Part shown: piece by piece, positions 631-21,625 of the stretch
How positions within the stretch are numbered: position 1 is the stretch's first letter
Layout of the letters: every line of letters starts with the position of its first letter
Source of the DNA: Planctomycetota bacterium
Lineage (GTDB): Bacteria > Planctomycetota > B15-G4
Direction of reading: 5' to 3'
DNA: 21,625 nt
Assembly (NCBI GenBank): GCA_003644265.1
Contig: QNBX01000070.1
Coordinates: 1 to 21,625, forward strand
Made by a program: the position numbers and the translations under genes
The notes under the pieces: generated by a model
Seen by the model: only the letters and a program-made list of their open reading frames with translations
Database searches by the model: none
What the model was told of the DNA's origin: nothing

Positions 631-3600
631 ACACAGCCATCACTCGCGGCCTGATCCAGACCGCGCTGCCCAGCCTGCTGACGAGCGTGCTGCTCTGCGG
701 CCCCGCGCTTGGGCAAGACCCCGAGGACGCTACCGCTCCCGCACACGAGCCGGCCGCCGTGTCCGACCAGGCTGTCGCCCCGGCAGCAGGAGCAGGAGCA
801 GGAGCAGGAGGAGCAGCAGCAGCAGCAGCAGCAGCCGACGATGCGAGCGCTGTTGGCGACGACGCCGCCGCCAACTCCCCCATCTCCACCGCCGAGCTCG
901 AAGCGCGCTACTGGACCATTGAGGCGCTCACGCCGCCGCCGGGCGTGGTGCTGGAGCTGGGCGGCATGGACTGGTTCCCCGACGGGCGGCTGGTGCTGTG
1001 CACACGGCGCGGTCAGGTCTGGATCGTGGAGCACGCCCTGGCCGAAGATCCCAGCGATGCGCGCTTCTCGCTCTACGCCGAGGGGCTGCACGAGCCCCTG
1101 GGCCTGAACGTGCTGGAGGTCGCCGACGGACACGGCCGCACACGCCACGCGCTCTACGTGCTGCAGCGCGGCGAGCTCTCAGAGCTGCGCGACGAGGACG
1201 GCGACGGCCGCGCCGAGACCTGGCTCACGGTCTGCGACGACTGGGGCCTGTCGGGCAACTACCACGAGTTCGCCTTCGGCCTGCCGGACGACGGCCAGGG
1301 CAAGCTGTACCTGTCGCTCAACGTCGGCTTCCTGTCGCCCGAGTGGTGGCTGGGCGTCTCGCTGGCGCCCTGGCGCGGCTGGGTGCTGCGCGTCGACCCG
1401 CTCACGGGCGAGGCCGAGCCCCTGGCCCACGGTTTCCGCAGCCCCGCGGGGCTGGGTTTCGACGGCGCCGGTCGGCTGCTGGTGACCGACAACCAGGGCG
1501 ACTGGATGCCGGCGGGCCCCGTCTTCGCGGTGCAGCCAGGCGGCTTCCACGGGCACCCGGCGTCGCTCTCGTGGACCGACGCGTACCGCGAGCAGCGCCT
1601 GCAGGCCAGCAGCATGCAGCCTCCCGAGCAGCCCCGCGTGGAGCCCGCGCTGTGGTTGCCGTACGGCTGGTCGCGCTCGGCCGGCGATCTCGCGCGGCTC
1701 CCCGGTGACTATCGATTCGGACCCTACAGCGGCGACCAGCTCGTGCTGGCCGAGCTCACCAACGGTCAGCTCCTGCGCATTCAACTCGAGCAGGTGCAGG
1801 GCGTGACCCAAGGCGCCGTGTTCCCCCTGCTCCAACAGCTGGGCTCGGCCTTCCGGGTCAGCGTGGCGCCGGACGGCTCGATCTTCGCCGGCCTCACCAA
1901 CCGCGGCTGGGGCGGGCTGGCTCCCGACCACGGCCTGCTGCGCGTACGCCCCACCGGCGCGCGCCCGTTCGAGATCGACCGCGTGACCCTGAGCGACGTC
2001 GGCTTCGATCTGTTCTTCTCGGGCGCCCTGGCCCACGACCTGACGCCCGGGCCCGACGACGTGACGCTGGTCCAGTACGACTACGACTACTGGTGGGAGT
2101 ATGGATCGCCCGAGCGCCACATCACGACCGTGCCCGTGACCAGGCTGCTCGTCTCCGACGATCGGCGCGCGCTGCGGCTGCAGGCCCCCGAGCTGCGCGC
2201 GGGCATGGCGGCGCGCGTCACGCTCACGGGGTTGCGCGACGCACGCGGCGAGCCGCTGCTGCACGATTCGTTCTCGTACACCGTCAATCGCCTGCCCGGG
2301 CAGCCAGCGCCGGCCGAGCCGGTGGCCAAGCTGGCGCCGGTGCCGCCGCCCAAGCAGTCCGGACGCGAGGGCTGGTTGCGGCTGACCTACGGCGACGCCC
2401 TCGACGCCTGGGACGGCCCGGGCTGGCAGCTCGTGAACGCGGACATCGGCGCAGCGGACCGCAGCGGCTTTGACATCGCCCCTGGCAACAACGCCCTGGT
2501 CAACGTCGGCCAGGGCCCCGCTGGTCACCTCAGCAGCAGGTGGGACCTGACCGACGGCAGCTACCACGTGGAGTTCATGCTGGCCGAAGGCAGCCGCTCC
2601 GTGGTCTGGATCGCCGGACGCTACGCGATCGAGCTCACCGACGACACCCACGGGCTGCCCGAGTGGAGCCTCGGCACGGGCACCATCATGGGCGGCGCGG
2701 CGAGCGGCACACGTGACGCGCGCCCCGCCCTGCCCCCGACGGTGGCGGGCTACCGCGGCGCCGGGCAGTGGCACGCGCTCGACGTGAAGTACGAGGCGCC
2801 AGTGCGGGCCGCCGACGGCACCGCGCTCAGCCCCGCCATCCTGCGCGAGGTGCGACTCGACGACGTGCTCATCCATGCAGACGTGGAGCTGTGGCAGCCG
2901 TCCGGGCTCAGCGCCGGTCGCCCGAGCGCCCGCAGCCCGCTGGTGATCGCCGGCGACACCGGACCGGTGGCCCTGCGCACCCTGGAACACAAGCCCGCGC
3001 GCACGGGCGAGGCCCCCGCCGACGCCGCAGACGGCTGGCTCAACCTGCTCGCGGGTGACGACCTGTCCGGCTGGACGCTGTTTCCGCCCCGCGACGCAGA
3101 CCAGGCCGCAACTCAAGCCACGGGCGCAGGCTCACGCACGGGTGCGGGCGTCGATCCAAGCGCCGACACGCGCGAGGACGCCGAGGACGCCGAGGACGAG
3201 CCCGAGCCCACCTGGAGCCTCGAAGACGGCGAGCTGCTTGGCGCTGGCCAACCGCGCTGGCTGCTCAGCCCCAGCGACGGCTACCGCGACCTCTCCCTGC
3301 GCGCCACGGTGCGCATCAACGAGGGCGGCGACTCCGGCATCATGCTGCGCGCGCGCCCCGACGGCCGGCGCCTGCGGGGCTACGAGGCCCAGATCAACGC
3401 GAGCTTCGCCGACGAGCACAAGACCGGCAGCCTCTACGGTCTGGTGCCGGTGAAGGTGCAGCTGATCCCGCCCGGCACCTGGTGCGATCTGGAGCTGGAC
3501 GTGGTGGACGAGCCCGAGGGCACGCACATCACCATCGGCGTCAACGGCGTGACGGTCGTCGATCACATCGACCCCAACCGGCGCCACAAGGCGGGCCACA

Positions 3601-3668
3601 TCGCGCTGCAGCAGCATCACGAGGGCGGCTACGTGCGCATGCGCGACCTGCGCGTGAAGGTACGCTGA
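627..3668 (+). CDS. Exported beta-propeller protein with two DUF1080 domains
   Basis: Starting at ATG 627 gives 1013 residues with a clear signal peptide (about residues 1-30, ending ALGQ). In-frame starts further upstream lie inside the preceding gene and would bury the signal. Residues 53-70 are an Ala/Gly simple-sequence stretch. Residues about 95-445 form a PVC-type propeller related to sorbosone/PQQ-type dehydrogenase folds, with HEFAFGL near 213 and the telltale TDNQGDW near 287. Residues about 445-556 look like an Ig-like or copper-type appended strand region. Two DUF1080 (3-keto-disaccharide hydrolase/concanavalin-like) domains follow: about 581-790, divergent, and about 803-1013, which has GWTLFP, GDSGIMLR and GYEAQIN. 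The second carries an acidic insert at 823-861. Family knowledge suggests periplasmic carbohydrate turnover; the exact substrate is unknown. The ATGA overlap couples it to the upstream gene. Confidence 0.88.
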   Translation: MNTAITRGLIQTALPSLLTSVLLCGPALGQDPEDATAPAHEPAAVSDQAVAPAAGAGAGAGGAAAAAAAADDASAVGDDAAANSPISTAELEARYWTIEALTPPPGVVLELGGMDWFPDGRLVLCTRRGQVWIVEHALAEDPSDARFSLYAEGLHEPLGLNVLEVADGHGRTRHALYVLQRGELSELRDEDGDGRAETWLTVCDDWGLSGNYHEFAFGLPDDGQGKLYLSLNVGFLSPEWWLGVSLAPWRGWVLRVDPLTGEAEPLAHGFRSPAGLGFDGAGRLLVTDNQGDWMPAGPVFAVQPGGFHGHPASLSWTDAYREQRLQASSMQPPEQPRVEPALWLPYGWSRSAGDLARLPGDYRFGPYSGDQLVLAELTNGQLLRIQLEQVQGVTQGAVFPLLQQLGSAFRVSVAPDGSIFAGLTNRGWGGLAPDHGLLRVRPTGARPFEIDRVTLSDVGFDLFFSGALAHDLTPGPDDVTLVQYDYDYWWEYGSPERHITTVPVTRLLVSDDRRALRLQAPELRAGMAARVTLTGLRDARGEPLLHDSFSYTVNRLPGQPAPAEPVAKLAPVPPPKQSGREGWLRLTYGDALDAWDGPGWQLVNADIGAADRSGFDIAPGNNALVNVGQGPAGHLSSRWDLTDGSYHVEFMLAEGSRSVVWIAGRYAIELTDDTHGLPEWSLGTGTIMGGAASGTRDARPALPPTVAGYRGAGQWHALDVKYEAPVRAADGTALSPAILREVRLDDVLIHADVELWQPSGLSAGRPSARSPLVIAGDTGPVALRTLEHKPARTGEAPADAADGWLNLLAGDDLSGWTLFPPRDADQAATQATGAGSRTGAGVDPSADTREDAEDAEDEPEPTWSLEDGELLGAGQPRWLLSPSDGYRDLSLRATVRINEGGDSGIMLRARPDGRRLRGYEAQINASFADEHKTGSLYGLVPVKVQLIPPGTWCDLELDVVDEPEGTHITIGVNGVTVVDHIDPNRRHKAGHIALQQHHEGGYVRMRDLRVKVR
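783..836 (+). repeat. GCAGGA/GCA simple repeat encoding an Ala-Gly stretch
   Basis: Codons 53-70 of the propeller/DUF1080 gene are GCA and GGA repeats: four GCA-GGA pairs from 786, then seven GCA codons in a row at 813-833. GCA and GGA are otherwise uncommon for Ala and Gly here, where GCC, GCG and GGC dominate. This points to expansion by strand slippage rather than selection on each residue. The stretch sits between the signal peptide and the first folded domain. Confidence 0.9.
3093..3209 (+). other. Low-complexity insert inside the second DUF1080 domain
   Basis: Residues about 823-861 of the propeller/DUF1080 protein interrupt the usual DUF1080 order, in which the GW-containing first strand is followed closely by a Trp strand (here TWSLEDGEL at 862). 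The insert is Ala/Thr/Gly-rich, then acidic, with a short GAGGACGCC duplication. It appears to be a loop insertion that leaves the fold intact. Confidence 0.65.
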
Positions 3669-3712
3669 GCGCCCCTCTCTCTGTGGCCCCCCATACTGAC
3701 CGCGCCGAGCCC

Positions 3713-4516
3713 ATGACGACCGCCCCTGCTCCTTGCCGTCGCGCGCCCCTCTCCGCCTGCATCATCGCCTTCAACGAAGCCGATCGGATCGAGGACTGCA
3801 TCCGCAGTGTGGACTTCTGCGATGACATCGTCGTGGTGGACTCGGGCTCCACAGACGCGACGCGCGAGCTCGCAGCGGCGCTCGGCGCCCGCGTCATCGA
3901 GCGTGAGTGGCCCGGGCACGTCGCCCAGAAAGAGTTCGCCGTGCGCGCGGCCCGGCATGACTGGGTCCTGTGCGTCGACGCCGACGAGCGCATCTCGCCC
4001 GAGCTCGCGCTCGAGATCCGGAGCCTGCAGTCGGACGGTTTCTCCGGCGAGCGCCAAGCTCCCGCAGGCTGGAGCATGCCGCGCCTGACCTGGTGGATGG
4101 GGCAGCCGATCCGCTACGGCACCTGGTACCCCAACCGACAGCTGCGCCTGTTTGATCGGCGCCGCGGGCACTGGGGCGGCCACGACCCCCACGACCGGGT
4201 CATCCTCGACGGGGACTTCGACCAGCAGCGCGGCCTGCTCGCCGGTGACCTCTTGCACCACAGCTATCGCGACCTGGATGACCATCTCGCCACCATCGCC
4301 AAGCTCACCGCCGTAGCCGCCGCGGGACTTCACGCCCGCGGGCGCCGGGCCAGGCTGGGCGACTTGTGGCTGCGCCCGGCCGTGCGCTTCGTGCGCTTCT
4401 ACTTCCTGAAGCGCGGCTTCCTGCTGGGCTGGCGTGGCCTGGCCCTGGCCTTCCTGGCCGCACACTACGTGCGCCTCAAGTACCTGCGCCTGCGGATCCT
4501 GCAAGCGCAAGCGTGA
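3713..4516 (+). CDS. WaaE-like family 2 glycosyltransferase
   Basis: The 267-residue protein has the GT2 (GT-A fold) pattern: ACIIAFNEADRIEDC near 15-29, VVDSGSTD at 41-48 for nucleotide-sugar binding, and the metal-binding CVDADE at 87-92. The later WYPNRQLRLF (138-147) and GHDPHDRV (156-163) motifs are typical of the WaaE/KdtX group, which adds a sugar to lipopolysaccharide core heptose. The C-terminus (about 225-262) is basic and amphipathic to hydrophobic (FYFLKRGFLLGWRG), suiting attachment to the inner face of the membrane. ATG 3713 was chosen because it is the first start after the previous stop, 44 bases upstream, and directly precedes the GT domain. No strong Shine-Dalgarno is visible. 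The gene is probably co-transcribed with the two genes before it. Family is sure; the donor and acceptor sugars are not. Confidence 0.88.
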   Translation: MTTAPAPCRRAPLSACIIAFNEADRIEDCIRSVDFCDDIVVVDSGSTDATRELAAALGARVIEREWPGHVAQKEFAVRAARHDWVLCVDADERISPELALEIRSLQSDGFSGERQAPAGWSMPRLTWWMGQPIRYGTWYPNRQLRLFDRRRGHWGGHDPHDRVILDGDFDQQRGLLAGDLLHHSYRDLDDHLATIAKLTAVAAAGLHARGRRARLGDLWLRPAVRFVRFYFLKRGFLLGWRGLALAFLAAHYVRLKYLRLRILQAQA

Positions 4517-4547
4517 GACCTGGGGCGAACGGGCGGCCGGCGACGTG

Positions 4548-4565
4548 GGCTCGCTGAGCGGAGCC
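4548..4565. terminator. Weak hairpin between convergent genes
   Basis: GGCTC at 4548-4552 pairs with GAGCC at 4561-4565 around an 8-base loop, in the 120-base gap between the glycosyltransferase stop and the convergent ubiD stop. There is no T-tract and the stem is short, so this is only a possible terminator. I see nothing else in the gap. Confidence 0.2.
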
Positions 4566-4636
4566 TGCGGCTGTGGGCCGACTCTGCCAGAAGCCCCCGG
4601 GAGCGGCGGACGCCCGATGCCCGCGCCCAGCCAGCC

Positions 4637-6529: not shown

Positions 6530-6532
6530 GGG

Positions 6533-6539
6533 TCCTCCC
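6533..6539 (-). promoter_or_regulatory. Ribosome binding site that fixes the ubiD GTG start
   Basis: On the minus strand GGGAGGA precedes the GTG at 6529 by three to four bases. The spacing is slightly short, but no other in-frame start further upstream has a comparable site. Confidence 0.6.
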
Positions 6540-6689
6540 AGCGAGTCAGAAAAGGGGCGCTGCCAACGGGGCGCGGATGATACCGCAGGGCCAAGGGCGC
6601 GAGGCGGCCCGCCCACGGACGGACGCACGGGCGGACCCGCGGGCCGCGTCCAGCCCATCGGGAGGGCTACGATCAGGCCAGGAGGAGCG

Positions 6690-6721
6690 ATTACACGCAG
6701 GCGCGCGGCCGTCGCTATGAT
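6690..6721 (+). promoter_or_regulatory. Possible promoter of the purine salvage genes
   Basis: TATGAT at 6716-6721 matches five of six bases of a sigma-70 -10 box and is conspicuous in such GC-rich DNA. ATTACA at 6690-6695 is a weak -35 candidate with a long 20-base spacer. The element lies in the 221-base divergent gap, 29 bases before the GTG of the phosphorylase gene. The rest of this gap shows nothing further. Confidence 0.35.
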
Positions 6722-6734
6722 GTCCGGCTCACCC

Positions 6735-6741
6735 GAGGGAG
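6735..6741 (+). promoter_or_regulatory. Ribosome binding site of the phosphorylase gene
   Basis: GAGGGAG at 6735-6741 lies nine bases before GTG 6751. It supports that non-ATG start. Confidence 0.65.
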
Positions 6742-6750
6742 TGACAGCCC

Positions 6751-7584: not shown

Positions 7585-7588
7585 CCCC

Positions 7589-7642
7589 GTGCCCGACGCG
7601 CCCCCCATGCCCGACGCGAGCCCCATGCCCAAAGCGAGCCCC
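7589..7642 (+). repeat. Three tandem 18-base repeats, each opening with a start codon
   Basis: Units begin at 7589 (GTG), 7607 (ATG) and 7625 (ATG) and run into ATG 7643. They are near-identical: each reads start codon, CCC, GAC or AAA, GCG, then a CCCCCC or AGCCCC tail. All four start codons are in frame with the phosphoribosyltransferase gene. If translated, the units encode a Met-Pro-(Asp/Lys)-Ala-(Pro/Ser)-Pro repeat. None has a strong Shine-Dalgarno. Confidence 0.85.
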
Positions 7643-8191
7643 ATGACCTCACCGATCGCCTACCCCGACCGCGCGCAGCTGCTCTACGGCGGCCCGGAGA
7701 TTGCGGCCACCGTCTACCGCATGGGCCGAGAGATCCGCGCGGTCTACGGGCAAGAGGAGGTCACCGTGGTGGCCGTGCTGCACGGCGCGATCGTGTTCTG
7801 CGCCGACCTGATCCGACAGCTCGACATGCCGCTGCAGCTCGAGACCATCTCGGCCCGCAGCTACCGCGGCACGGACACCACCCCCGGCGACCTGACGGTC
7901 AGAGTCGACTGGGCCGGCAGCCTGGAGGACCAGCACGTGCTGCTGGTGGAGGACATCCTCGACACCGGCCGCACGCTCACCCGGCTCAAGCAGGAGGTGG
8001 GTGCCTGCAACCCGCGCTCGCTGCGCATCGCCACCCTGCTCGACAAGCCCGAGCGGCGCGTGACCGAGCTGGAGGCCGACTTCGTGGGCTTCAAGATTCC
8101 GGACCTGTTCGTAGTGGGCTACGGCCTCGACCACGACGGCCGCTGGCGCAACCTGCCCGACATCCTGGCGCTGCAGGGCGAGGGGGAGTAG
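7643..8191 (+). CDS. hpt: Hypoxanthine/guanine phosphoribosyltransferase
   Basis: The 182-residue enzyme transfers the phosphoribosyl group from PRPP to hypoxanthine or guanine, giving IMP or GMP in the cytoplasm. Motifs are clear: AVLHGAIVF (44-52; the usual Lys of the LKG loop is His here), the flexible catalytic loop SYRGTDTT (73-80), the PRPP motif VLLVEDILDTGRTL (99-112), FKIPDLFVVGYG (150-161) with the purine-contacting Lys, and WRNLPDI (168-174). The length fits the family. ATG 7643 gives the usual N-terminus, but three further in-frame starts (7589, 7607, 7625) lie in a tandem repeat just upstream, and with GTG 7589 the gap to the phosphorylase gene is only four bases. The two genes form a purine salvage operon: the phosphorylase frees the base and this enzyme recaptures it. 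Confidence 0.93.
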   Translation: MTSPIAYPDRAQLLYGGPEIAATVYRMGREIRAVYGQEEVTVVAVLHGAIVFCADLIRQLDMPLQLETISARSYRGTDTTPGDLTVRVDWAGSLEDQHVLLVEDILDTGRTLTRLKQEVGACNPRSLRIATLLDKPERRVTELEADFVGFKIPDLFVVGYGLDHDGRWRNLPDILALQGEGE

Positions 8192-8207
8192 GGCAGGGGC
8201 GGAGGGG

Positions 8208-8282
8208 CCTCGGCGCACGCAGCAGCTTGCGGCAGCTCGCAGCGCCCGGCACCAAGCGCATCGAGCACGCCTCGGCGCACGC
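8208..8282. repeat. 13-base direct repeat pair downstream of hpt
   Basis: The 13-mer CCTCGGCGCACGC occurs at 8208-8220 and again at 8270-8282, between the convergent hpt and cupin genes. Its role is unknown. It could be the trace of a small duplication or chance in GC-rich DNA. Confidence 0.4.
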
Positions 8283-8296
8283 CCGCTGCGCGCGGC

Positions 8297-11529: not shown

Positions 11530-13671
11530 ATGCCGCCCATGTCGCGCGCTCCGCTCCCGCCTGCATCCGACGCCTCGGAGAACACACCTGGGGGCGCGGC
11601 GGCCAACGCGAAGCCGCCCGCGGCTGGCTGCCCAGCGCCTGCCACGCCGACGTCTCCGCCTGGCCGCGCCCGCGACGGCCTGGCCCGAGCACTGCTGCTG
11701 GCCTGCGCCGTGGCGCTGCTGGGCTTCGCCGTGGTCTCGCCCTCCTTTTCGGACGAGTTCCTGTGGGACGACGTGTCGCTGCTGCTGGAGCAGCCCGTGC
11801 TGACCGCGCCCGACGCCCTGCAGCGCATCTGGTTCTCCGGCGACGCGCTGGACTATTACCCCGTCACCTGGAGCGTGGCCTGGGTCCAGCGCCAGCTCTT
11901 CGGGGACGGGGCCATGGGCTTCCGCGTGCTCCAGGCGGCGCTGCACGGCCTGGCCGCGGGGCTGCTGCTGCTGCTGTCGCGGCGCTTGCTCGACGCGGGC
12001 CCGGCGCTGTTTGCGGCGACGCTGTTCGCCGTGCATCCCATGAGCGTGGCCACGGCGGCGTGGGCCAGCGAACTCAAGAACACGCTCACGCTGGTGTTCG
12101 CCCTGGTGGCCTGCATCGCCTGGCTGGCGTGGCGCGCGCGCGGGTCATGGCAGCTGCTGGCGCTGGCCATGCTCGCGTTCGCGTTGTCGCTGCTGTCGAA
12201 GGTGGCGCTGGTGGGGCTGCCGCTGGTGTTGCTGGCGCTGGACCGCTGGCGAGGCCGTCGGCTCGACCGCCGCAGCGTCAGCAGCGCGGCGGCCTTGATG
12301 GCGCTGGCTCTGGCCGCGGCACTTGTCGCGTTCCAGGTCCACGCCAGCCACACGGCCGGGCTGACGGACGTCTTTGAACCCAGCCTGGCGCGGCGCGTGA
12401 TCTGGTCGGGCTACGGCGCCTGGTTCTACCCACTGCGCTTCGCGTGGCCCGTCGGGCTCATGCTGGTCTACCCCTTTGTGCTGCCCGCCGTGGCCGGCGC
12501 CGCGGGGCTGCTGGCGCTGGTTGCGGCGCTCGCGCTGGCCTGGCGCCGTGCGGCGACGGCGCGCCCCGGGCTCGCGCTGATCGTGCTCTGCTACGGCTTC
12601 AGCATCGGGCCGGGCGTGGGGCTGGTCTGGCACGCCCAGGCCATCCTGCCGCCGGTGTCGGAGCACTTCGCCTACGCGGCGCTGCCGGCCATCGCCTGCG
12701 CCCTCGCCGGGCTGGGGCAGCTGTGCATGATCCGCATGCAGCTGCCGCCGCGCGCGCGCGTGGCCCTGGCCCTGGCTGCGCTGATGGCGGTGGGCGCGCT
12801 GGGTGCCCGTCGCGCGGCACTCTACGCCTCGCCCGTGTCGCTCATGTCGCACGCGGTGGAAGCCAACCCCGACGCATGGCAGGCGCTCGACAGCCTGGCC
12901 ATGGAGCTCGCCCGCCGGGGCGAACTCGAGAGCGCGCGCCGGCACCTGTCGCGGGCCCGGGAGGTGGAGCCGCGCTACGACGTCTCGGCCAGCAACCTGG
13001 GCGTGGTGCTGGCCAGCATGGGCCGCGTCGCCGAGGCCGAGCCGCAGCTGCGCGACGCCGTGGCGCTCAAGCCCGACTCGGCCGACTACCTCGCCAACCT
13101 GGTGAGGCTGCTGGGACGCACCGGGCGCGACGCCGAGGCGCTGGAGCTGGCGCGCGCGTTCGCGGCGCGAGCGCGACCCACGGCCGGGCTGCTGGCGGCC
13201 GAGGCCTCGGTGCTCACGCGCGCCGGACGGCCCGCCGAAGCCATCGACCGCTACCGCCGGGCCATCGATCAGGCGCCTGCGTCGGTCGAGCTGCAGCGCT
13301 CACTCGGTCGCCTGCTGGCGAAGACCGGCGATCTGCGCGGCGCCGCCACGCGGCTGCGCGAGGCCACGCGGCTCGCGCCGGGCCGGGCCGGCGGCTGGGT
13401 CGACCTGGGCCGGGTGCTGGAGGCGCTGGCAGCCGCGGGCGACGAGGCCTCGCCGGGCCACAACGCAGCTGGCAGCGGCGACGGCGGCAGGGACCGGGAC
13501 AGCGGCGACGGCAGCAGCGGCAGCGACGATGGCGGCCTGCCCGGCGCCACGCTCAACCCGCGCGACGAAGCGGTCGCGTGCATGCGCCGCGCCCTGGCCC
13601 TCGACCCGACCCACGCCGGCGCGCGAGCCTGGCTGGAGCGCGCGGGCCTGCTCCCTCACTCCCCGCGCTGA
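11530..13671 (+). CDS. TMTC-like GT-C membrane protein with TPR repeats
   Basis: The 713-residue protein has an N-terminal Pro/Ala-rich cytoplasmic tail (1-48), then a polytopic membrane domain of about ten segments (about 52-430). After the first segment comes FSDEFLWDDVSLL (73-85), where the acidic DE/DD residues match the first-loop catalytic motif of GT-C glycosyltransferases of the TMTC/PMT kind. HPMSVATAAWASELKN (169-184) matches the conserved HPxxVExxAWxxxRKN motif of that group. Residues about 445-706 hold five to six TPR repeats. The likely role is transfer of sugar from a lipid carrier to exported protein, by family analogy only. The last TPR is split by a Gly/Asp/Ser-rich insert at 637-676. 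The start could be ATG 11530 or ATG 11539; neither has a good Shine-Dalgarno. The 123-base gap upstream is shared with the divergent exonuclease gene. Confidence 0.85.
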   Translation: MPPMSRAPLPPASDASENTPGGAAANAKPPAAGCPAPATPTSPPGRARDGLARALLLACAVALLGFAVVSPSFSDEFLWDDVSLLLEQPVLTAPDALQRIWFSGDALDYYPVTWSVAWVQRQLFGDGAMGFRVLQAALHGLAAGLLLLLSRRLLDAGPALFAATLFAVHPMSVATAAWASELKNTLTLVFALVACIAWLAWRARGSWQLLALAMLAFALSLLSKVALVGLPLVLLALDRWRGRRLDRRSVSSAAALMALALAAALVAFQVHASHTAGLTDVFEPSLARRVIWSGYGAWFYPLRFAWPVGLMLVYPFVLPAVAGAAGLLALVAALALAWRRAATARPGLALIVLCYGFSIGPGVGLVWHAQAILPPVSEHFAYAALPAIACALAGLGQLCMIRMQLPPRARVALALAALMAVGALGARRAALYASPVSLMSHAVEANPDAWQALDSLAMELARRGELESARRHLSRAREVEPRYDVSASNLGVVLASMGRVAEAEPQLRDAVALKPDSADYLANLVRLLGRTGRDAEALELARAFAARARPTAGLLAAEASVLTRAGRPAEAIDRYRRAIDQAPASVELQRSLGRLLAKTGDLRGAATRLREATRLAPGRAGGWVDLGRVLEALAAAGDEASPGHNAAGSGDGGRDRDSGDGSSGSDDGGLPGATLNPRDEAVACMRRALALDPTHAGARAWLERAGLLPHSPR
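13438..13557 (+). other. Low-complexity insert within a TPR hairpin
   Basis: About 40 residues rich in Gly, Asp, Ser and Arg lie between WVDLGRVLEALAAAG (TPR helix A) and EAVACMRRALALDP (helix B) of the same repeat. The two helices remain intact, so the insert replaces a normally two- to three-residue turn. Confidence 0.75.
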
Positions 13672-13752: not shown

Positions 13753-13851
13753 CGCCCGCACGGCAAGGTGAGCGTGACGGGGTCCCTGCCAGCGCCAACG
13801 CGAACACGCCGCCATGCGCCCCCACCCCGAACTCAGCGAGAGCCCCCGGCC

Positions 13852-14661
13852 ATGAGCGCGTCCATGCACAAGCTGCTGCTGGTCCTGGCGGCGCTGGCGC
13901 CGCTGGCCGCGCAGCAGCTCCTCTTCCGGGCTGCGCCGGCGCCCAACGAGATCGTCTTGGCGACGGGCGCGCCCGGCACACCGAGCCACCGGCTGGGGCA
14001 GGCGCTCAGCCGGTCCTGGGACCAGGCCCTGCTGATCACGACCCACGTCGCGCCGGCCGGAGGTGACGTGCCTGCGGCACAGCTGCTGACCCTGGAGCTG
14101 GCCGACCTGGCCTTGGCGCCGCGCGACGCCGAGCTGCCCGAGGGCGTCTCGCTGCTGGCCGAGCTGCGATACGAAGACGTGGCCCCTGCAAGCAGCGCCA
14201 GCGCCAGCGCCGGTGACGGTGACGGTGACGGTGACGGTGACAGCGAAGACCCTGTCGTGGGCATCGACCCGGGCACTGCGCCCGAGACACAGCCCGGCAC
14301 CGGCGCGGACACGAGCACGGCCAGCAGCAGCACGACGCGGCTACTGGCGGCCACGGCGCTGCACCCCGGCCTGGTGGAGCGTCTCGTGCGCTCGCTCAGC
14401 GCCGCCCCAGGCTCCCAGACCTGGCGCGTCGTGCATGCGGACCAGCACGCGACAGAGCGCCCCTCGCCACCCGCACCAGGAGACGCCCTCGCCACCCCCG
14501 CCCCGCCGCGACACGTCGGCGCCCTGGCCGCGCGTCAGCCCGCGCCGACCGGCGCCGCAGCCCTGGTTCGATTCATGTCACGCCATGGGGGAGCCTGCGC
14601 CAGCGCCGTGCTGCTGGCGCTGCTGATCACGCGGCGAGGGCGACGCAGGCGCCCCGCCTGA
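13852..14661 (+). CDS. Degenerate TAXI-like binding protein with C-terminal membrane anchor
   Basis: The 269-residue protein begins with a signal peptide or anchor (1-20). Residues 33-109 resemble the start of TAXI-type TRAP transporter binding proteins: IVLATGAPGTPSHRLGQAL matches the family's ATGxxGGxYxxLGxAL, followed by a lobe ending in ELADLALAPRD, like GEADLAxxQ. The normal remainder (about 200 residues of the second lobe) is missing. In its place is a low-complexity linker (113-162) with five GGTGAC repeats, then a short folded-looking piece (163-200), a Pro-rich stretch and a C-terminal hydrophobic helix (about 247-260) followed by RRGRRRR, which should keep the end in the cytoplasm. 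No TRAP membrane subunits are nearby. The TAXI link rests on eye-read similarity only. ATG 13852 was chosen for the signal-like N-terminus. It is possibly a decayed gene. Confidence 0.6.
   Translation: MSASMHKLLLVLAALAPLAAQQLLFRAAPAPNEIVLATGAPGTPSHRLGQALSRSWDQALLITTHVAPAGGDVPAAQLLTLELADLALAPRDAELPEGVSLLAELRYEDVAPASSASASAGDGDGDGDGDSEDPVVGIDPGTAPETQPGTGADTSTASSSTTRLLAATALHPGLVERLVRSLSAAPGSQTWRVVHADQHATERPSPPAPGDALATPAPPRHVGALAARQPAPTGAAALVRFMSRHGGACASAVLLALLITRRGRRRRPA
14212..14241 (+). repeat. Five perfect GGTGAC repeats encoding Gly-Asp
   Basis: Five uninterrupted GGTGAC units encode a (Gly-Asp)5 run within the TAXI-like gene. AGCGCC repeats encoding Ser-Ala lie immediately upstream. The stretch is perfect at DNA level and uses the rarer Gly codon GGT, indicating recent slippage. 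Confidence 0.9.
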
Positions 14662-14700
14662 GCGTGGGCACACGCGGTCGCCGCCAAGCCGCATGGCGGC
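14662..14700. terminator. Two stacked hairpins between convergent genes
   Basis: GCGTG/CACGC (14662-14666 with 14671-14675) and a perfect 7-base stem GCCGCCA/TGGCGGC (14680-14686 with 14694-14700, 7-base loop) lie between the TAXI-like stop and the uridine kinase stop. This is a good candidate for a bidirectional terminator, without a T-tract. Confidence 0.45.
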
Positions 14701-14755
14701 CCGCTCGAAGCTGCGCCCGCCGGAGCCAGGGCCAACGCGCCCGCCGCACTCCCCG

Positions 14756-15370: not shown

Positions 15371-17061
15371 GGCGCACAGGATGCCGTGACGCCGGTCATG
15401 GCCGCCAGGGTGGACTCGGGCTTGAGCTGCGCGCCGGCGAGCTCGGCCACCACGCGGCCCTCGCGCAGCACGAGCACGCGCGTGCACAGGGCCAGCAGCT
15501 CGGGCAGCTCGGAGCTGGCCAGCAGCAGCGCGGTGCCGCCCGCCGCCAGCTCCCGCAGCAGCGCGTGGATCTGGGCCTTGGCGCCCACGTCCACGCCGCG
15601 GGTGGGCTCGTCCACCAGCAGCACCCGCACGCCGCGGTCGATCCAGCGCGCCAGCACGACCTTCTGCTGGTTGCCGCCGGAGAGGGAGGACACAGGCAGA
15701 CCCGGACGCGCGCCGCGCAGATCCACGCGCGCGTGGGCGGCGGCGGCCCGGGCGCGCTCGGCGCGGCGACTCAGCAGCGGGCCCCGGCGCAGGGGGTCGG
15801 GGCGGCCGAGCCCGTGGTTGTCGGCGGCGTCCAGCGCGGGCACCAGGCCCTGCCGCTTGCGATCCTCCGGCACCAGCCCCAGGCCCGCGGCCACGGCGGC
15901 ACGCACGTCGCCGAGCGCCAGGGGCTCGCCGCCGACGCGCACGCGGCCGCGCGCGGCACGGTCCAGCCCGAACAGCGCGGCCAACAGCTCGCTGCGCCCG
16001 GCGCCGACAAGGCCGGCCAGCCCCAGGATCTCGCCGCGCCGGACGCAGAGCGAGATCTCCGTCGGTCCGGTCGGCGAGCTGAGGCCCTGCACGTCGAGCA
16101 GGATCTCATCGGGCGCCGCGCTGTCCGGCGACGCGGAGACGATCGGGTTGGCTGCGACACCGGTCGAGCCGTAATCGGCCGGTGATGCGTCGGCAGCTAC
16201 GATCGCCTGCTGGCTCGGGACGCCGTCGGCGCTGGCGCCGCTCCCAAGCCCCGCGCCGTCGGCGCCAGCGTGGCTGCCGCTCGGCGGGCGCATGTGCAGG
16301 TCCTGCTCCAGATCGCGCCCCAGCATCATGCGCACCAGCGTGGACTCGTCGGCGTCGGCGCGCTCCAGCGTGCCCACCAGCGCGCCGTCGCGCAGCACGG
16401 TCATGCGGTCGCACAGGGCCAGCACCTCGGGCAGGCGATGGCTGACGTACACCAGCGTGGTGCCGCGCGCGCGCAGCTCGGCCAGCAGCTCGAACAGACG
16501 CGCCGCCTCGCCCTCCGAGAGCGAGCTGGTGGGCTCGTCCAGCAGCAGAGCCCGGGCGCCGGTGCCCACGGCCGCCGCGATCTGCACCAGCTGCTCCTGG
16601 GCCACGGACAGGCTGCCCATGGGCGCGGCCACGTCGATCTCAGGGCCGATGTCCGCCAGCAGCTGCCGCGCGCGGGCGAGCATGGCCGCGCCGTCCACCA
16701 GCAGTCCTCGCCGGGGCCAGCGCCCGAGGGCGAGGTTCTCCGCCACGGACAGCTGGGGGCAGCAGGCCAGCTCCTGGTGCAGCATGGCCACGCCGGCGGC
16801 CAGGGCGTCGGCGGGCGAGCGCAGACGTCGCGGCCGACCGTCGATGCACAGCTCGCCGCCGTCGGGTCGGTGGATGCCCGCCGCGATGCGCGCCAGGGTC
16901 GACTTGCCCGCGCCGTTCTCGCCCATGAGCGCGTGGCAGCTGCCGGCCTGCACGTCGAGGTCGATGGCGTGCAGCACCTCGACGCCACCGAAGCGCTTGC
17001 TCACGCCCTGCCAGCGCAGGGACGGGCCGAGACCGGAGCGCGTCTGGCCGGACAGCGTCAC
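15367..17061 (-). CDS. Ribose/simple-sugar type ABC importer, double ATPase subunit
   Basis: The 564-residue protein has two fused ATPase domains of the RbsA/MglA family on the inner face of the membrane. Domain 1: Walker A GENGAGKST (47-55), signature LSVAQEQ (151-157), Walker B LLLDEPTSSL (172-181), H-loop YVSHR (205-209). Domain 2: a degenerate Walker A GLVGAGRSE (350-358), as is normal in this family, signature LSGGNQQ (460-466) and Walker B LLVDEPTRGVD (481-491). The two domains are separated by an unusually long low-complexity linker (about 256-318). Length is therefore about 60 above the usual 500 despite a shortened region near 418-450. The GTG start has GGAG five bases before it. It lies 67 bases after the binding protein gene and overlaps uridine kinase at its end. 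The sugar or nucleoside carried cannot be told from the ATPase. Confidence 0.92.
   Translation of the reverse strand: MTLSGQTRSGLGPSLRWQGVSKRFGGVEVLHAIDLDVQAGSCHALMGENGAGKSTLARIAAGIHRPDGGELCIDGRPRRLRSPADALAAGVAMLHQELACCPQLSVAENLALGRWPRRGLLVDGAAMLARARQLLADIGPEIDVAAPMGSLSVAQEQLVQIAAAVGTGARALLLDEPTSSLSEGEAARLFELLAELRARGTTLVYVSHRLPEVLALCDRMTVLRDGALVGTLERADADESTLVRMMLGRDLEQDLHMRPPSGSHAGADGAGLGSGASADGVPSQQAIVAADASPADYGSTGVAANPIVSASPDSAAPDEILLDVQGLSSPTGPTEISLCVRRGEILGLAGLVGAGRSELLAALFGLDRAARGRVRVGGEPLALGDVRAAVAAGLGLVPEDRKRQGLVPALDAADNHGLGRPDPLRRGPLLSRRAERARAAAAHARVDLRGARPGLPVSSLSGGNQQKVVLARWIDRGVRVLLVDEPTRGVDVGAKAQIHALLRELAAGGTALLLASSELPELLALCTRVLVLREGRVVAELAGAQLKPESTLAAMTGVTASCAP
16108..16296 (-). 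other. Low-complexity linker between the two ATPase domains
   Basis: About 63 residues (256-318 of the ATPase) rich in Ala, Gly, Ser, Asp and Pro lie between the end of domain 1 (MMLGRDLEQDL) and the start of domain 2 (ILLDVQGLS). In RbsA-type proteins this junction is usually 10-20 residues. No clean DNA repeat remains, so this may be an older expansion. Confidence 0.75.
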
Positions 17062-17128
17062 GCCCGCTCCATGGCACGCGACGTCCGGTGCGCGCGGGTG
17101 CGACCCAGCGCCATGGGCGGCATGGGCG

Positions 17129-18166
17129 TCACCCGTCGCTGCCCAGCCAGGCCGTCCAGTCGTCGCGCACCGAAGCCACGTCGGCCAGGCGCACCGGGCG
17201 CAGCGGGTCGACCATGCGCGGGCCGCCTTCGGGCTCGATGTCGCGCAGCAGCTTGTCGAGCAGCAGGCGCACGGACTCGCGCCCCCAGCCGAAGCAATCC
17301 TGGGCCAGCAGCACCTCGACGTGCCCGCTCTCCAGGTAGGCCAGCTGCGCGGGCAGCGCGTCCACCGAGACGATCTTGACGGCCCCCGGCGTCCAGCGCA
17401 GCGAGCCGCGGGTGTACAGCGGCCAGCCGCCCACCAGCGCCCAGCCGCCGATCTGCGGGTGCGTCGACTGGGCCGCCGCCAGGGCCTCGGCGGCGCGTTC
17501 GGGCGTCTCGGGGTGGTAGAAGACGCCGTCCTCCAGCAGGGTCATGCCGGCGTGCCGAGCCAGCTCCGCCTTCACGCCGGCCACGCGCGCCTGCAGGTTG
17601 GGCGCCGCCTGGTTGCCGGCCAGGATGGCGATGGTGCCGGTCTCGCCCATGCTCTGCGCCAGGTGCTGCATGACCAGCGCGCCGCAGGTCTCGTCGTCGG
17701 TGCCGAAGAACGCGAAGCGCTTGCTGCGCGGGGCGTCGCTGTCAAAGCAGACCACCTGCGCGCCCAGCTCTACCGCCTTGTCGATGGCCGGCGTGACGGT
17801 GTTGGCGTCGCTGCACGACACGGCGATGCCCGCCGCGCCGGCCCGCGCCAGCTGCTCGATGGCCGCCGCCTGCGCCGCGGGGTCCTCGTCGGCCGGCGTC
17901 TGGATGTCGATCACCAGCTCGACGCCGTACTCGTCGCCCAGCTCCGCGGCCGCGGCCCGCGCGCCGGCGTGGGCCGCCTGGAACACGGGGTTGCTCTGGC
18001 TCTTGGCCACGATGCCGATCAGCACGCGCGGACGCGAGCTGTCGCCCGGCCCGCCGGCGTCGTGGCCAACGTCGTCGCCACGATCCGCGCCAGGACCGCA
18101 GGCGGCCAGGCCGAACAGCAGCCCCAGCAACAGGGTCCGTGGCAGACAGGCGCAGGGCAGGCTCAT
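17129..18166 (-). CDS. Ribose-type ABC importer substrate-binding lipoprotein
   Basis: The 345-residue protein is a periplasmic binding protein of the RbsB (Peripla_BP_4, type I fold) family made as a lipoprotein: signal 1-22 with lipobox LAAC, Cys23. A disordered Gly/Asp linker (24-45) precedes the first lobe, which starts VLIGIVAKSQSNPVFQAAHAGARAAA (48-73). Further landmarks are AIEQLARAGAAGIAVS (101-116) and TGTIAILAGNQAAPNLQARVAGVKAEL (about 175-201), the usual cross-over region. LLAQDCFGWGRESV (about 285-298) is the typical late contact. The ATG has GAGGAG eight bases upstream and overlaps the preceding DUF4105 stop (TGATG), so both are on one transcript. It delivers a sugar or nucleoside-like ligand to the permease and ATPase encoded on either side. 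Family firm, ligand unknown. Confidence 0.9.
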   Translation of the reverse strand: MSLPCACLPRTLLLGLLFGLAACGPGADRGDDVGHDAGGPGDSSRPRVLIGIVAKSQSNPVFQAAHAGARAAAAELGDEYGVELVIDIQTPADEDPAAQAAAIEQLARAGAAGIAVSCSDANTVTPAIDKAVELGAQVVCFDSDAPRSKRFAFFGTDDETCGALVMQHLAQSMGETGTIAILAGNQAAPNLQARVAGVKAELARHAGMTLLEDGVFYHPETPERAAEALAAAQSTHPQIGGWALVGGWPLYTRGSLRWTPGAVKIVSVDALPAQLAYLESGHVEVLLAQDCFGWGRESVRLLLDKLLRDIEPEGGPRMVDPLRPVRLADVASVRDDWTAWLGSDG

Positions 18167-19386
18167 CAGGTGCTCTCCTCAGGGTCAGTCGGGGACGCGG
18201 CGGCAGCCCCGCGAGCGACTGTCCCCACGCCCGGCCGGAGCTGCCGCCAGCAGGCGAACGCCGTGGCCAGTGCCAGGGGCAGGGCGGCGCCGGGCAGACG
18301 CTGCGGCAAGAACGGCATGACCAGCGCCACCAGCAAGCTGACGACGCCCGCCGCGAACAGGTAGCGCTCGAGCCCACGTGAGCCGCGCCCGCGCAGCACG
18401 GCCACGCCGGCGACCACGTGGGTTGGCCAGGCCCAGAGCAGGTTCAGATTCTGATCGGTGACGTGGTGCAGGGTGACCGCCCAGAGCAGGGCGATGAAGC
18501 AGCCGGCCAGCCCCAGCAGCAGCAGCAGCAGCCCGGACCAGGCGCGCCGCCGGCCCAGCGGGATGCCGACGGCAAGCAACGCCCAGGCCGCGATCACGTC
18601 CCAGCGTGGCGCGGGCGTGGGCAGGTGTGGCGCCGCGCGGCCCACCAGCTCACGGGTGCCGCTCACCAGCGGGCGCGCGACGCCGTCGCCGTCAATCAGC
18701 GTGGCGTGGTCAAACGCCAGGGCCAGGTCGTCCGGCAAGAAGAGCTGCTCTTGCGGCGTGGCCTCGCGGTCGACGGGCAGCCCCATCAGCAGGTCGATGC
18801 CCAAGTGCAGGAAGGGCGCCCCGGCCACGTACGGATCGAGCATCTCCCGGAACGAGCGCGGCCCGCTGTCGGCCCCCGGCAGCTCCAGCTCAGCGCCCAA
18901 CGCGGACACAAAGGCGTCGCCCACGCGCGTCGAGCAGTTGTCGAGCAGGAAGTCGTAGCGATAGACGCGCTGCTCCGGCTGCGCGTTGTGCAGCAGAAAG
19001 CGCAGCACTGCCTCGGCCTGCTGCTGCGAGAGCGCCAGCGCCTGCTCCGACACCCCGCGCTGCTCCCAACGCCACATCGCCATGGCGTCCTCATACGACG
19101 CCAGCGACAGGTAGTAGTCCAGCTCGCCATACACAAAACGAGGGATGAAGTCAGGCCCGAACTCGAAGGTCCCGTAGTTGAACACCACGTCGTTGCCCAG
19201 CGCCGCGTTCCGCACCCGGATGGCCGTGTGCCCAAACAACGCATGCACCTGCTCCCCCGGCGTCACCGTCAACAGCGACACCCGACTGCCTGGAGCCAGG
19301 CCCTCCCCCGCCGCCTGCGCCGCGACCGCCCCCCCCATACCCAAGCAGGCAAACACCACAAGCGCAGACACCAGTCGACGGATCAT
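18166..19386 (-). CDS. DUF4105 (Lnb N-terminal-like) membrane protein
   Basis: The 406-residue protein has a signal peptide (1-24) and a periplasmic DUF4105/Lnb N-terminal-type domain (about 33-240). Landmarks are LLTVTPGEQVHALFGHTAIRV (38-58, with His53), VFNYGTFEF (68-76), FVYGELDYYLS (84-94) and LLDNCSTR (147-154, with Cys151). The His/Cys pair is like that of NlpC/P60-type cysteine enzymes, but activity is unproven for this family. About five membrane segments follow (about 264-382), matching the usual family architecture, and then a short tail. The gene sits inside an ABC importer run: 143 bases after the permease and overlapping the binding protein gene by one base (TGATG). A role in lipoprotein or envelope handling linked to the importer is possible but only inferred. 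The start ATG 19386 is the one before the signal; no clear Shine-Dalgarno is seen. Confidence 0.87.
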   Translation of the reverse strand: MIRRLVSALVVFACLGMGGAVAAQAAGEGLAPGSRVSLLTVTPGEQVHALFGHTAIRVRNAALGNDVVFNYGTFEFGPDFIPRFVYGELDYYLSLASYEDAMAMWRWEQRGVSEQALALSQQQAEAVLRFLLHNAQPEQRVYRYDFLLDNCSTRVGDAFVSALGAELELPGADSGPRSFREMLDPYVAGAPFLHLGIDLLMGLPVDREATPQEQLFLPDDLALAFDHATLIDGDGVARPLVSGTRELVGRAAPHLPTPAPRWDVIAAWALLAVGIPLGRRRAWSGLLLLLLGLAGCFIALLWAVTLHHVTDQNLNLLWAWPTHVVAGVAVLRGRGSRGLERYLFAAGVVSLLVALVMPFLPQRLPGAALPLALATAFACWRQLRPGVGTVARGAAAASPTDPEEST

Positions 19387-19529
19387 CCCGCCGTTCTACG
19401 AAATCCCCCCGCCCAGCGGGACCACCCACCCCGCACAACCGCCGCGACTCGCAGCCCAGCACAAGCACCGCCCCCACCGGCCCGGACCACCCAACCCGCT
19501 CCCCCGGAGCGAACACCCCGCCCCCGCCC
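19387..19529 (-). other. Strongly G-skewed intercistronic gap with many G-runs
   Basis: By hand count the minus (transcribed) strand has about 82 G and 28 C in 143 bases, with about a dozen runs of three to six G. This is far from the surrounding balance. It could form G-quadruplexes in the mRNA between the permease and DUF4105 genes. No promoter or simple hairpin terminator is recognised. No shadow reading frame through it resembles a protein. Confidence 0.6.
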
Positions 19530-20711
19530 TCAAGCCCCCCGCCGCACCCTCTCACTCAGGCGCTCCACCGCCACCGCCACCACGATCGCCAACCCCACGA
19601 TGATCTTGCCGTACTCCTTGCTCACCGTGAACGTGAACAGCCCCAGGTCGACCGTGCGCAGGATGTCGATCCCGTTCTCGATGACCTTGATCACGAGCGC
19701 ACCCAGGATGGCGCCGAGGGCCGTGCCGCGCCCTCCCGAGAGGCTGGCGCCGCCCACCACCGCGGCAGCGATGACGGTCAGCTCATAGCCCTCGCCCGTG
19801 GCCGTGTTGGCCGACTGGTAGAAGCCTGCCGAGATCATCCCCGCCACGCCCGCCAGCAATCCCGCCAGCCCGTACACGCGCAGCTTGGCGCGGCCGGTGC
19901 GGATGCCGGCGTAGCGCGCCGCCTGCTCGTTGCCGCCCACGGCGTAGAGCTCGCGCCCGCCCACCGTGCGCGACAGGTGCAGCCAGACCGCCACGCCGCA
20001 GACCAGCATGATCAGCATGGGCACGGGCTGCACGAAGGTGTGGCCCCACTCGAGGCGCGCGCCCACGAAGCCCTCGGTGAAGCTGGTGGGCAGCTGCTTG
20101 CCGAGCGCCGGCAGGGTCTTGGTGCGCACGCTCACCAGGCCGATGCCACGGAAGATCGAGAGCGTGCCCAGGGTCACGATGAAGGGGTGCATGCGCAGCC
20201 CGGCCACCAGGGCGCCGTTGACCAGACCGCAGGTCGTGCCGATGCCCAAGGCGGTGACCGCGGCGACGGGGATCGCTATCCAACCGGGCGAGTCGGCGGG
20301 CAGCTGCTGCAGCACCGCGGCCGTGCCCAGCGCCGAGAGCCCGAAGATGGAACCCACCGAGATGTCGATGCCGCCCGTGATCACGACCATGGTGGCGCCC
20401 AGGGCCATGATGGCCATCCAGCTCATGGGCGTGAGCACGTTGGGCACCAGGTTGTCGAAGCGCAGGAAGTTGTTGACCGTGCGCTCGCCCAGGCTGACCG
20501 GCTCGCTGGCCAGGGTCAGGAACGCGCCCAGGGCCAGCAGCACCAGCAGCAGCCCGCCCTCCGACAGGGCCAGGCGCCCGCGCGTCGTGCGCGCACGACC
20601 GGGTGTTGGGCGCTCGGAGTCCGCGCGCCTCCGTCCGGGCGCGGCGCCCTCGCCGCTCTGCGGAGCGGACGCCGCCGTCGTCGTCTGCCGTGGCTCGCTG
20701 TTGTGCACCAT
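19530..20711 (-). CDS. Ribose-type ABC importer permease
   Basis: The 393-residue inner-membrane permease is of the RbsC/BPD_transp_2 family, with about eight to ten membrane segments beginning at LLLVLLALGAFL (54-65). Family signatures are plain: VITGGIDISVGSIFGLSALG (110-129), LRMHPFIVTLGTLSIFRGIG, YAVGGNEQAARYAGI, and the C-terminal GYELTVIAAAVVGGASLSGG segment. ATG 20711 leaves a 50-residue Ser/Thr/Arg-rich tail before the first helix, longer than usual. Starts further upstream (20741, 20756) would run into the divergent promoter region and add nothing conserved. There is no Shine-Dalgarno before 20711, but a perfect TTGACA lies 30 bases upstream, so a leaderless transcript is possible. 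It is the first gene of the importer run and is read away from the S9 peptidase gene. Confidence 0.9.
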   Translation of the reverse strand: MVHNSEPRQTTTAASAPQSGEGAAPGRRRADSERPTPGRARTTRGRLALSEGGLLLVLLALGAFLTLASEPVSLGERTVNNFLRFDNLVPNVLTPMSWMAIMALGATMVVITGGIDISVGSIFGLSALGTAAVLQQLPADSPGWIAIPVAAVTALGIGTTCGLVNGALVAGLRMHPFIVTLGTLSIFRGIGLVSVRTKTLPALGKQLPTSFTEGFVGARLEWGHTFVQPVPMLIMLVCGVAVWLHLSRTVGGRELYAVGGNEQAARYAGIRTGRAKLRVYGLAGLLAGVAGMISAGFYQSANTATGEGYELTVIAAAVVGGASLSGGRGTALGAILGALVIKVIENGIDILRTVDLGLFTFTVSKEYGKIIVGLAIVVAVAVERLSERVRRGA

Positions 20712-20717
20712 GCCATG

Positions 20718-20746
20718 ACGACAGCCCAACCGGAGGCCCATGTCAA
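20718..20746 (-). promoter_or_regulatory. Possible promoter of the importer operon
   Basis: On the minus strand TTGACA (20746-20741) is a perfect -35 box. With a 17-base spacer the -10 position (20723-20718) is TGTCGT, a poor match. Transcription would then begin at about the ATG of the permease gene. Confidence 0.3.
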
Positions 20747-20817
20747 CGCGGCGCATGATTCCGGTGGACACGCCCGCCTCGGTTATCCTCCCCGACTCGC
20801 CCAGGCTGGAGTGCTCC

Positions 20818-21625
20818 ATGCCCGTCACCAGCACGCTGATCTGTCTCAGCCTCGCCCTGTTCTCGCCCGGAGACGGGGGGCCGCCCTGGCCTGACCCCGC
20901 GCCGTCGCTGGAGCAGATCTTCCGCGCGCCGACGCTGCTTGGGCAGCGGCCCAGCCGCGTGGGCATCTCGGCGGACGGTCGCTGGGTGAGCTTCGACTGG
21001 AGCCCGGAGCGAACGCAGGACGCCGACGAGGGGGAAGGCGCCGACAGGACCAGGGACGCCACCGACACCAACAGTAACGAAGCGGCCGAGGACGCCGCCA
21101 CGGAAGCCGCGGACATCGTCGCCGAGGCCGACGAGCCCGAGCAGCCCGGGACCTGGCTGGTGAACACCTCCAGCGGCGAGACCCACGGGCTCGGCGGCCC
21201 CGACGACGACGTGCGCGTGCACTGGACCGGTCGCGGTTCGCTGGCGCTGGTGGAGCGCGACGGCTGGCTCGAGCTCTACGACCCCGCGGACGACGGCGTG
21301 CGCAGCCCGTTGTTCCAGACCGGCGGCGGCGTGTCGCTGACCATGCTGGAGGACGACGTCAGCGTGCTGCTGCGCAGCGCCGACAACCAGCTCTGGCTGC
21401 TCGACCTGGAGCGCGGCACCCGCCGCGCCCTGGCCCCGGAGCTGGAGCAGCGCTCGCGCTGGTTCGACGTGGAGCCCCGTGCCGGCGTGGTGGCGGTGTT
21501 GGCCAGCCACGCGAGTGACGACGGGCGCGACGGCGAGCACAGCAGCGAACGCAGCAGTCACCATGACGAGGGCCTCGGCGGCGCTCGCAACAGCAACAGC
21601 AACAGCAACAGCAACGGCAACGGCA
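20818..21625 (+). CDS. N-terminal part of a probable S9-family peptidase
   Basis: The frame is open from ATG 20818 to the window edge (269 residues seen), so the 3' end is missing. GGAG six bases before the ATG supports the start. A short signal-like N-terminus (STLICLSLALFS) is followed by LEQIFRAPTLLGQRPSRVGISADGRWVSFDWSPE-like order (31-64), the pattern that opens the beta-propeller of prolyl-oligopeptidase/DPP-IV type (S9) exported peptidases. Blade-like repeats follow: TWLVNTSSGETHGL (112-125), GSLALVERDGWLELYD, NQLWLLDLERGTRRAL (190-205). The catalytic hydrolase domain would lie beyond the window, so the S9 call is inference. Two low-complexity inserts are present: acidic at 65-109, and Asp/His/Ser then Asn-Ser repeats from 231. 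It is divergent from the importer operon across 106 bases. Confidence 0.65.
   Translation, partial: MPVTSTLICLSLALFSPGDGGPPWPDPAPSLEQIFRAPTLLGQRPSRVGISADGRWVSFDWSPERTQDADEGEGADRTRDATDTNSNEAAEDAATEAADIVAEADEPEQPGTWLVNTSSGETHGLGGPDDDVRVHWTGRGSLALVERDGWLELYDPADDGVRSPLFQTGGGVSLTMLEDDVSVLLRSADNQLWLLDLERGTRRALAPELEQRSRWFDVEPRAGVVAVLASHASDDGRDGEHSSERSSHHDEGLGGARNSNSNSNSNGNG
21010..21144 (+). other. Acidic low-complexity insert in the propeller
   Basis: About 45 residues (65-109) rich in Asp, Glu, Ala and Thr lie between the first propeller strand (WVSFDWSPE) and the next (GTWLVNTSSGE). In S9 propellers this loop is normally a few residues. The DNA is a mixture of GAC, GCC and GAG codons without a perfect repeat. 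Confidence 0.65.
21589..21624 (+). repeat. AACAGC/AACGGC hexamer repeat at the window edge
   Basis: Four AACAGC units and two AACGGC units in frame encode Asn-Ser and Asn-Gly repeats within the S9-like gene. The array continues to the window end, so its full length is not known. Confidence 0.85.

Follow-up and report, generated by a model that had tools for sequence, protein, structure and literature searches.

Short tandem repeats inside genes are known from contingency loci, also called phase-variable repeats, and acidic surface insertions are a feature of halophilic proteins. Base composition strongly influences the share of simple-sequence proteins according to one survey (PMC1524752). 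Another paper reports that in Bacteria the density of short tandem repeats correlates with GC (Spearman 0.49), that repeats are enriched at indels, and that bacteria are depleted of short tandem repeats compared with shuffled genomes (PMC12699852). Here we analysed contig QNBX01000070.1 of a Planctomycetota bacterium, taken whole as a window of 21,625 bases with a GC content of 72.6%. An earlier reading of this window (the original prediction) had claimed low-complexity segments of Ala, Gly, Asp, Ser and Glu at seven sites in unrelated genes. All seven were found at or near the predicted coordinates and in the frame of their genes, with A, G, D, S, E, T, P, N and Q making up 79-100% of the residues. 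We propose, with a probability of roughly two in three, that GC-linked slippage seeds in-frame inserts that are tolerated in disordered loops and later decay under a filter on amino acid composition. The segments and the genes that hold them are as follows.

627..3668, + strand: g2, with a dehydrogenase-like domain and a C-terminal 3-keto-disaccharide hydrolase (DUF1080) domain assigned by Pfam; two of the segments lie within it
714..881, + strand: low-complexity spacer of g2 from signal peptide to first domain (residues 30-85), from the alignment and the predicted local distance difference test (pLDDT)
783..836, + strand: run of GCA and GGA codons (17/18 codons), a DNA-level expansion by Tandem Repeats Finder (TRF) and codon log-likelihood
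3093..3209, + strand: acidic DUF1080 loop of g2 (residues 823-861; the alignment-defined insert has 35 residues from residue 819), from alignment, tree and structure
11539-13671, + strand: g10, a PMT/TPR protein by its TPR and PMT_2 Pfam matches
13438..13557, + strand: Gly/Asp/Ser insert, presumably at the A-B helix turn of the last g10 TPR; approximate boundary
13864-14661, + strand: g11, an orphan of no known family
14188..14337, + strand: Gly-Asp repeat segment of g11, (GGTGAC)5, by TRF and lag-2 codon identity
15367-17061, - strand: g13, the ATPase of a sugar ABC transporter system (ATPase, binding protein, permease)
16129..16287, - strand: insert of 53 residues in the g13 linker that joins the two ATPase domains, from a 120-protein alignment
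20740 to contig end, + strand: g17, a truncated S9-type peptidase, named from the homologue L088
21010..21144, + strand: acidic insert, some 38 residues long, in an early loop of the g17 propeller, from the alignment with L088-L093
21508..21625, + strand: second propeller loop of g17 with an (AACAGC)n/(AACGGC)n array at its end, by TRF; the contig stops in the array

The segments are of two kinds. Three carry in-frame arrays (783-836, 14211-14241 and 21587-21625), and four, namely the DUF1080 loop, the TPR turn, the ABC linker and the first propeller loop, are of low complexity at the protein level with little or no DNA-repeat signal. The claim that several segments are still perfect short DNA repeats thus held for the first three, which are perfect or near-perfect, and not for the others. 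TRF arrays overlap four of the seven segments.

783-835: 3 bp x17.7, 84% match
3168-3198: 9 bp x3.3, 95% match, a shorter array
14211-14241: 6 bp x5.2, 100% match
21587-21625: 6 bp x6.5, 96% match

No array was reported by TRF at 13438-13557, 16108-16296 (the predicted bounds of the ABC linker) or 21010-21144. The called genes of the window, 6,421 residues in all, contain five low-complexity segments, whereas five within-protein residue shuffles give an expectation of 0.2; this puts the window second of 63 stretches. These five do not include 783-836, since genes were called with a simple codon-bias script that cuts off some starts, that of g2 among them.

Codon usage indicates expansion at the DNA level. 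GCA and GGA account for 3% and 6% of the Ala and Gly codons of the window, and the run at 783-836 has a codon log-likelihood of -55.9 against a mean of -16.8 (sd 3.1), with none of 5,000 recodings as low. The log-likelihood was also low at 3093-3209 (P 0.005), 14188-14337 (P 0.028), 16108-16296 (P 0.009) and 21010-21144 (P 0.032; these P values are uncorrected), and ordinary at 13438-13557 and 21508-21624. When the seven segments were pooled, same-residue codon pairs at lag 2 were identical in 54 of 63 cases, compared with 35.8 expected (z 5.0). The excess is carried by 783-836 (11/12), 14188-14337 (15/15 against 8.2 expected), 21508-21624 (10/10) and 13438-13557 (5/5), where codon identity is raised weakly. 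In the rest of the window, beyond its low-complexity segments, identity was seen in 192 of 331 such pairs (175.7 expected).

UbiD, g2, g13, g17 and, poorly, g10 were aligned with relatives. UbiD of the window is 70-73% identical to its counterparts in six genomes of a single family, three of which were reached via named Planctomycetota metagenome-assembled genomes, and the window is probably placed near this family. UbiD was the only conserved enzyme checked, and its window copy has no insert relative to the six family orthologues. Relatives or structure confirmed placement in loops, linkers or termini for the mapped segments; the TPR turn was placed by the TPR consensus only, and the g11 segment could not be placed.

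In g2, Pfam matches were obtained to PF06439 (E 2e-35, residues 803-1011) and PF07995 (E 0.00058, 19.7 bits, under the family's 25-bit cut-off). Among 7,987 scored candidates, 974 relatives were found at E<=0.001; within the best 120 of these, the nearest other protein is 67% identical. The spacer was aligned from 60 of the 120 proteins, the DUF1080 loop and tree from all 120, and the structure from 58 of the first 60. The segment at 783-836, predicted to follow a signal peptide, is real but covers only part of a longer stretch that separates the signal peptide from the domain (about 714-881). The conserved start is preceded by 85 residues in g2 and by fewer in 57 of the 59 aligned relatives, the remaining two, P0005 and P0009, having 126 and 451. 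The AlphaFold model has a mean pLDDT of 84.1, with values below 50 for residues 1-82 (except 42) and 833-857, and a helix is predicted at residues 823-831, within the DUF1080 loop. This loop has 45 residues in g2 against a median of 7 in the 120 proteins and is the second longest after that of P0019 (55). Nineteen of the 120 proteins have a loop of at least 20 residues. On the 120-protein tree, a quick one with Shimodaira-Hasegawa-like approximate likelihood ratio test (SH-aLRT) support and no bootstrap, the long state requires nine gains or losses, of which well-supported branches force five or more, and the sister protein of g2, P0002 (support 100), has a short loop.

The insert predicted between the ATPase domains of g13 is present, its bounds being refined from 16108-16296 to 16129-16287. 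The g13 linker of 73 residues is the longest of 120 (17-41 residues, median 19, in the 119 relatives), and the insert is the sole one in g13 of at least 5 residues in columns occupied by at most 5% of the 120 proteins. In one relative, P0215, an insert of 25 residues was seen within the first ATPase domain, which is either a real insert or a frame error. In G002, a family member, the ABC ATPase homologue (L006/L009) matches in five pieces with extra bases between them and may hold several inserts inside the ATPase domains. Searching plasmids with the g13 ATPase gave at least 5,000 records, none of them reaching 60% identity, and these were not used further.

Both segments claimed for the S9-like propeller are present in g17. 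The first is missing in all six homologues found in 14 genomes of the class (L088-L093); L088 matches Peptidase_S9 with an E-value of 9.9e-30, and the window fragment itself gave no Pfam match. The second is cut by the contig end, and its loop is length-variable and, by eye, of low complexity in all six homologues too. The contig ends inside the 6-bp array at 21587-21625, which suggests that the assembler stopped at this repeat.

The insert of g10 was positioned with the TPR consensus because the relatives, at roughly 27-35% identity across long stretches, align badly at this site; its boundary could not be fixed from 20 of the 88 relatives found, and at E<=1e-30 an orthologue was obtained in one of the six family genomes. 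The description of g11 as TAXI-like was not borne out, as the protein had no Pfam match at E<=0.5 and no match in the 14 class genomes at E<=1e-5, an empty answer that alone shows little. By eye, g11 has a signal-peptide-like start and a hydrophobic stretch followed by an Arg-rich C-terminus.

None of the six family genomes is free of low-complexity segments (62 in 273,052 called residues). Across 79 further stretches of planctomycete DNA, GC correlated with tandem-repeat density (rho 0.75), with low-complexity segments (rho 0.49) and with short 3/6/9-bp arrays (rho 0.41); these stretches are not a random sample, as 13 of the 16 non-family genomes came from a repeat-pattern match list that favours repeat-rich genomes, and a second batch was aimed at GC-rich genomes once the first results were known. 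One stretch consisting of N only (L051) was dropped, and L086, a near-copy of L085, was not used. The presence of segments throughout the family and their rise in density with GC agree with the original prediction of a genome-level rather than a gene-specific process. Among stretches with a GC of at least 0.71, at least four short arrays, the number in the window, occur in 1 of 26, and at least five segments in 3 of 26. The window therefore lies in the upper tail of planctomycete stretches and not outside it. The repeat (GAYGGN)4 was found in 66 of 392 planctomycete genomes and in three of the six family genomes. In genome G183, a hexanucleotide array (CCGGTG) of about 268 copies runs outside called genes to the end of its stretch (L068:18391-20000).

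A frequency no higher than in other high-GC bacteria had been named as evidence against the prediction, and this is partly what was seen. Low-complexity segments number 12.7 per 10,000 residues in the planctomycete G057 (GC 0.74) and 7.8 in the window. Beyond the phylum, densities of 5.95 and 3.66 were obtained for a Streptomyces plasmid and for Cupriavidus, with lower values for Methylorubrum (0.74), Streptantibioticus (0.71), Deinococcus (0.66) and Rhodococcus (0).

The arrays, the codon signature, the tolerant positions and the GC correlation are all observed, and they fit the following scenario. Replication slippage in a very GC-rich genome would produce GC-rich short repeats; expansions that are in frame and fall at exposed, disordered or inter-domain positions would escape removal; and point mutation would then scramble the codons while the residues stay small, polar and mostly acidic or neutral. 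The stages would lie side by side in the window, with fresh arrays at 783-836, 14211-14241 and 21587-21625 and partly decayed ones at 3093-3209 and 13438-13557, and 16129-16287 and 21010-21144 would be old inserts or inserts not made by slippage.

Several results weigh against this scenario. The window was chosen for this very feature, so its high rank is biased upward. GC is not the sole factor, because Cupriavidus, with 63% GC, outnumbers two controls above 72% GC in segments. The array at 21508-21624 is built of ordinary codons (P 0.34), and no significant lag-2 excess was found at 16108-16296 (3/8), 21010-21144 (5/7) or 3093-3209 (5/6). No segment gave a significant result in the test for the longest exact tract (recoding P 0.08-0.54; own-codon permutation P 0.17-0.77), and the case for slippage therefore rests on the TRF arrays, the rare codons and the same-residue codon identity. 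The 62 family segments showed no excess of codon identity (lag 1, 102/274 against 124 expected, thus below expectation with z -2.75; lag 2, 124/298 against 138.5; lag 3, 124/275 against 124.4), and a small excess was seen in family sequence outside them (5,661/11,569 against 5,378). Since they lack codon homogeneity as a set, most segments of the family have an older or different origin and are not fresh repeats.

Selection for acidic disordered loops, for instance as an adaptation to salt or for solubility, could instead be the main driver, with the DNA repeats as incidental raw material. A modest acidic bias does exist: in the inserts of the window, acidic residues outnumber basic ones by 59 to 11, compared with 715 to 603 elsewhere, a comparison that is partly circular as acidic segments were picked in the original prediction. 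Each of the 19 long DUF1080 loops is net acidic; together they have 26% D+E and 3.7% K+R, compared with 13% and 8.3% for these proteins at full length, and the state of this loop changed repeatedly on the tree. Net acidic outnumber net basic low-complexity sequence windows by 124 to 70 (of 262) in the family, while other planctomycetes (32:52) and the controls (21:41) lean basic, and after filtering the ratios were 58:28, 17:27 and 11:22 (Fisher p 0.0025 and 0.0009). The unfiltered acidity count leaves out sequence windows of membrane-like character (mean hydropathy above 0.9), the planctomycete plasmid L081 was kept out of the controls in both acidity counts, and L001 was left out of the family set in the filtered acidity and export counts. 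At the residue level, however, the low-complexity sequence windows of the family are barely above their proteome (acidic to basic 0.152 to 0.102, against 0.128 to 0.097), and the more acidic proteome of the family explains part of this bias. No charged residue occurs in the run at 783-836, P0234 has a long ABC linker without acidic character, and by eye several homologues have a second propeller loop rich in Lys, Pro and Ala. As this loop is not generally acidic in homologues, a universal acidic rule fails. Exported proteins were not significantly enriched either (17 of 157 exported against 27 of 335 other family genes with a segment; odds ratio 1.39, p 0.31), by a home-made signal-peptide rule and after dropping genes below 120 residues or 0.25 score per codon. 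Acidic selection as the main driver is unlikely, though it deserves some weight. We are just as doubtful about a combined account for the family, in which GC-driven slippage supplies the repeats and selection keeps the acidic ones, the same loops, such as that of the 3-keto-disaccharide hydrolase, being expanded repeatedly with unrelated but acidic sequence.

The weak purging that the original prediction coupled to slippage could reflect a lineage-specific hypermutation in the species of the window, with mismatch repair lost or weak. The window has 3.7 short 3/6/9-bp arrays per 20 kb against 0.05-0.43 in the six sampled family genomes, but this density stems from four arrays in one chosen 21.6-kb window. 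Other planctomycetes with a GC close to or above that of the window reach 0.71 (G361), 1.17 (G013), 2.33 (G057) and 3.0 (G183, from one stretch in which one of three arrays lies outside called genes). Of the 14 class genomes, all have a MutS match (13 of them above the cut-off) and 13 a MutL match; both proteins are present in 6/6 family genomes, and loss of mismatch repair was rejected at the family level. We consider hypermutation improbable. Still less credible is an artefact of assembly or gene model: the contig does end inside a repeat, but the frame of every insert stays open, a protein 100% identical over the 1,013 residues of g2 exists on a contig of 5,669 bases (source 'lgn'), and g10 has an entry on a contig of 50,575 bases, these assemblies not being fully independent as they may share the same reads. 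Equally hard to credit is that the segments are individually functional, gene-specific linkers. The DUF1080 loop and the second propeller loop were expanded at the same place in several lineages; distant relatives, however, mostly share neither sequence nor length, and the sister of g2 has a short DUF1080 loop. The segments imply no gene-specific function, and GC-linked slippage with later decay remains our preferred explanation.

The other genes of the window encode a family 2 glycosyltransferase, UbiD, a nucleoside phosphorylase, a phosphoribosyltransferase, a uridine-kinase-like protein and an Lnb-type protein, and some are without assignment. At the start of the phosphoribosyltransferase gene, an 18-bp unit is repeated 3.4 times (7585-7645). 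The start codon may itself be duplicated, because the unit repeats an in-frame ATG (7607, 7625 and 7643).

The window illustrates how much disordered loop sequence the ordinary enzymes of a very GC-rich bacterium can carry, with fresh and apparently decayed stages together. The DUF1080 and S9 propeller loops are places to study repeated expansion, and length differences in such proteins require no special function. A literature search found no treatment of loop expansion in planctomycetes in titles and abstracts, which is no proof of absence.

Compared with known systems, the pattern is a clear example of a known process and nothing new in kind. The short intragenic tandem repeats resemble those of contingency loci; here, however, the period is divisible by 3 in 14 of 14 arrays, so that a change in copy number keeps the frame, and a contingency locus, which depends on a frame-shifting period, was rejected. 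Like halophilic proteins, those of the window have acid-rich exposed loops, but the acidity of the window's proteome as a whole is moderate (D+E 12.1%, K+R 9.6%). The Ala/Gly/Ser-rich simple segments, and a share that follows the base composition of the genome, are shared with the simple-sequence proteins described in PMC1524752; that survey reports aspartate and arginine as severely restricted and an association with the cell surface, whereas here Asp and Glu are common and the export bias is not significant. In PMC12699852 bacterial repeats are depleted relative to shuffled genomes, and the 14 arrays found here differ in their uniformly frame-keeping periods. The likeness to that paper is to GC-linked short tandem repeats as indel hotspots, with which the window shares its short arrays and a density rising with GC.

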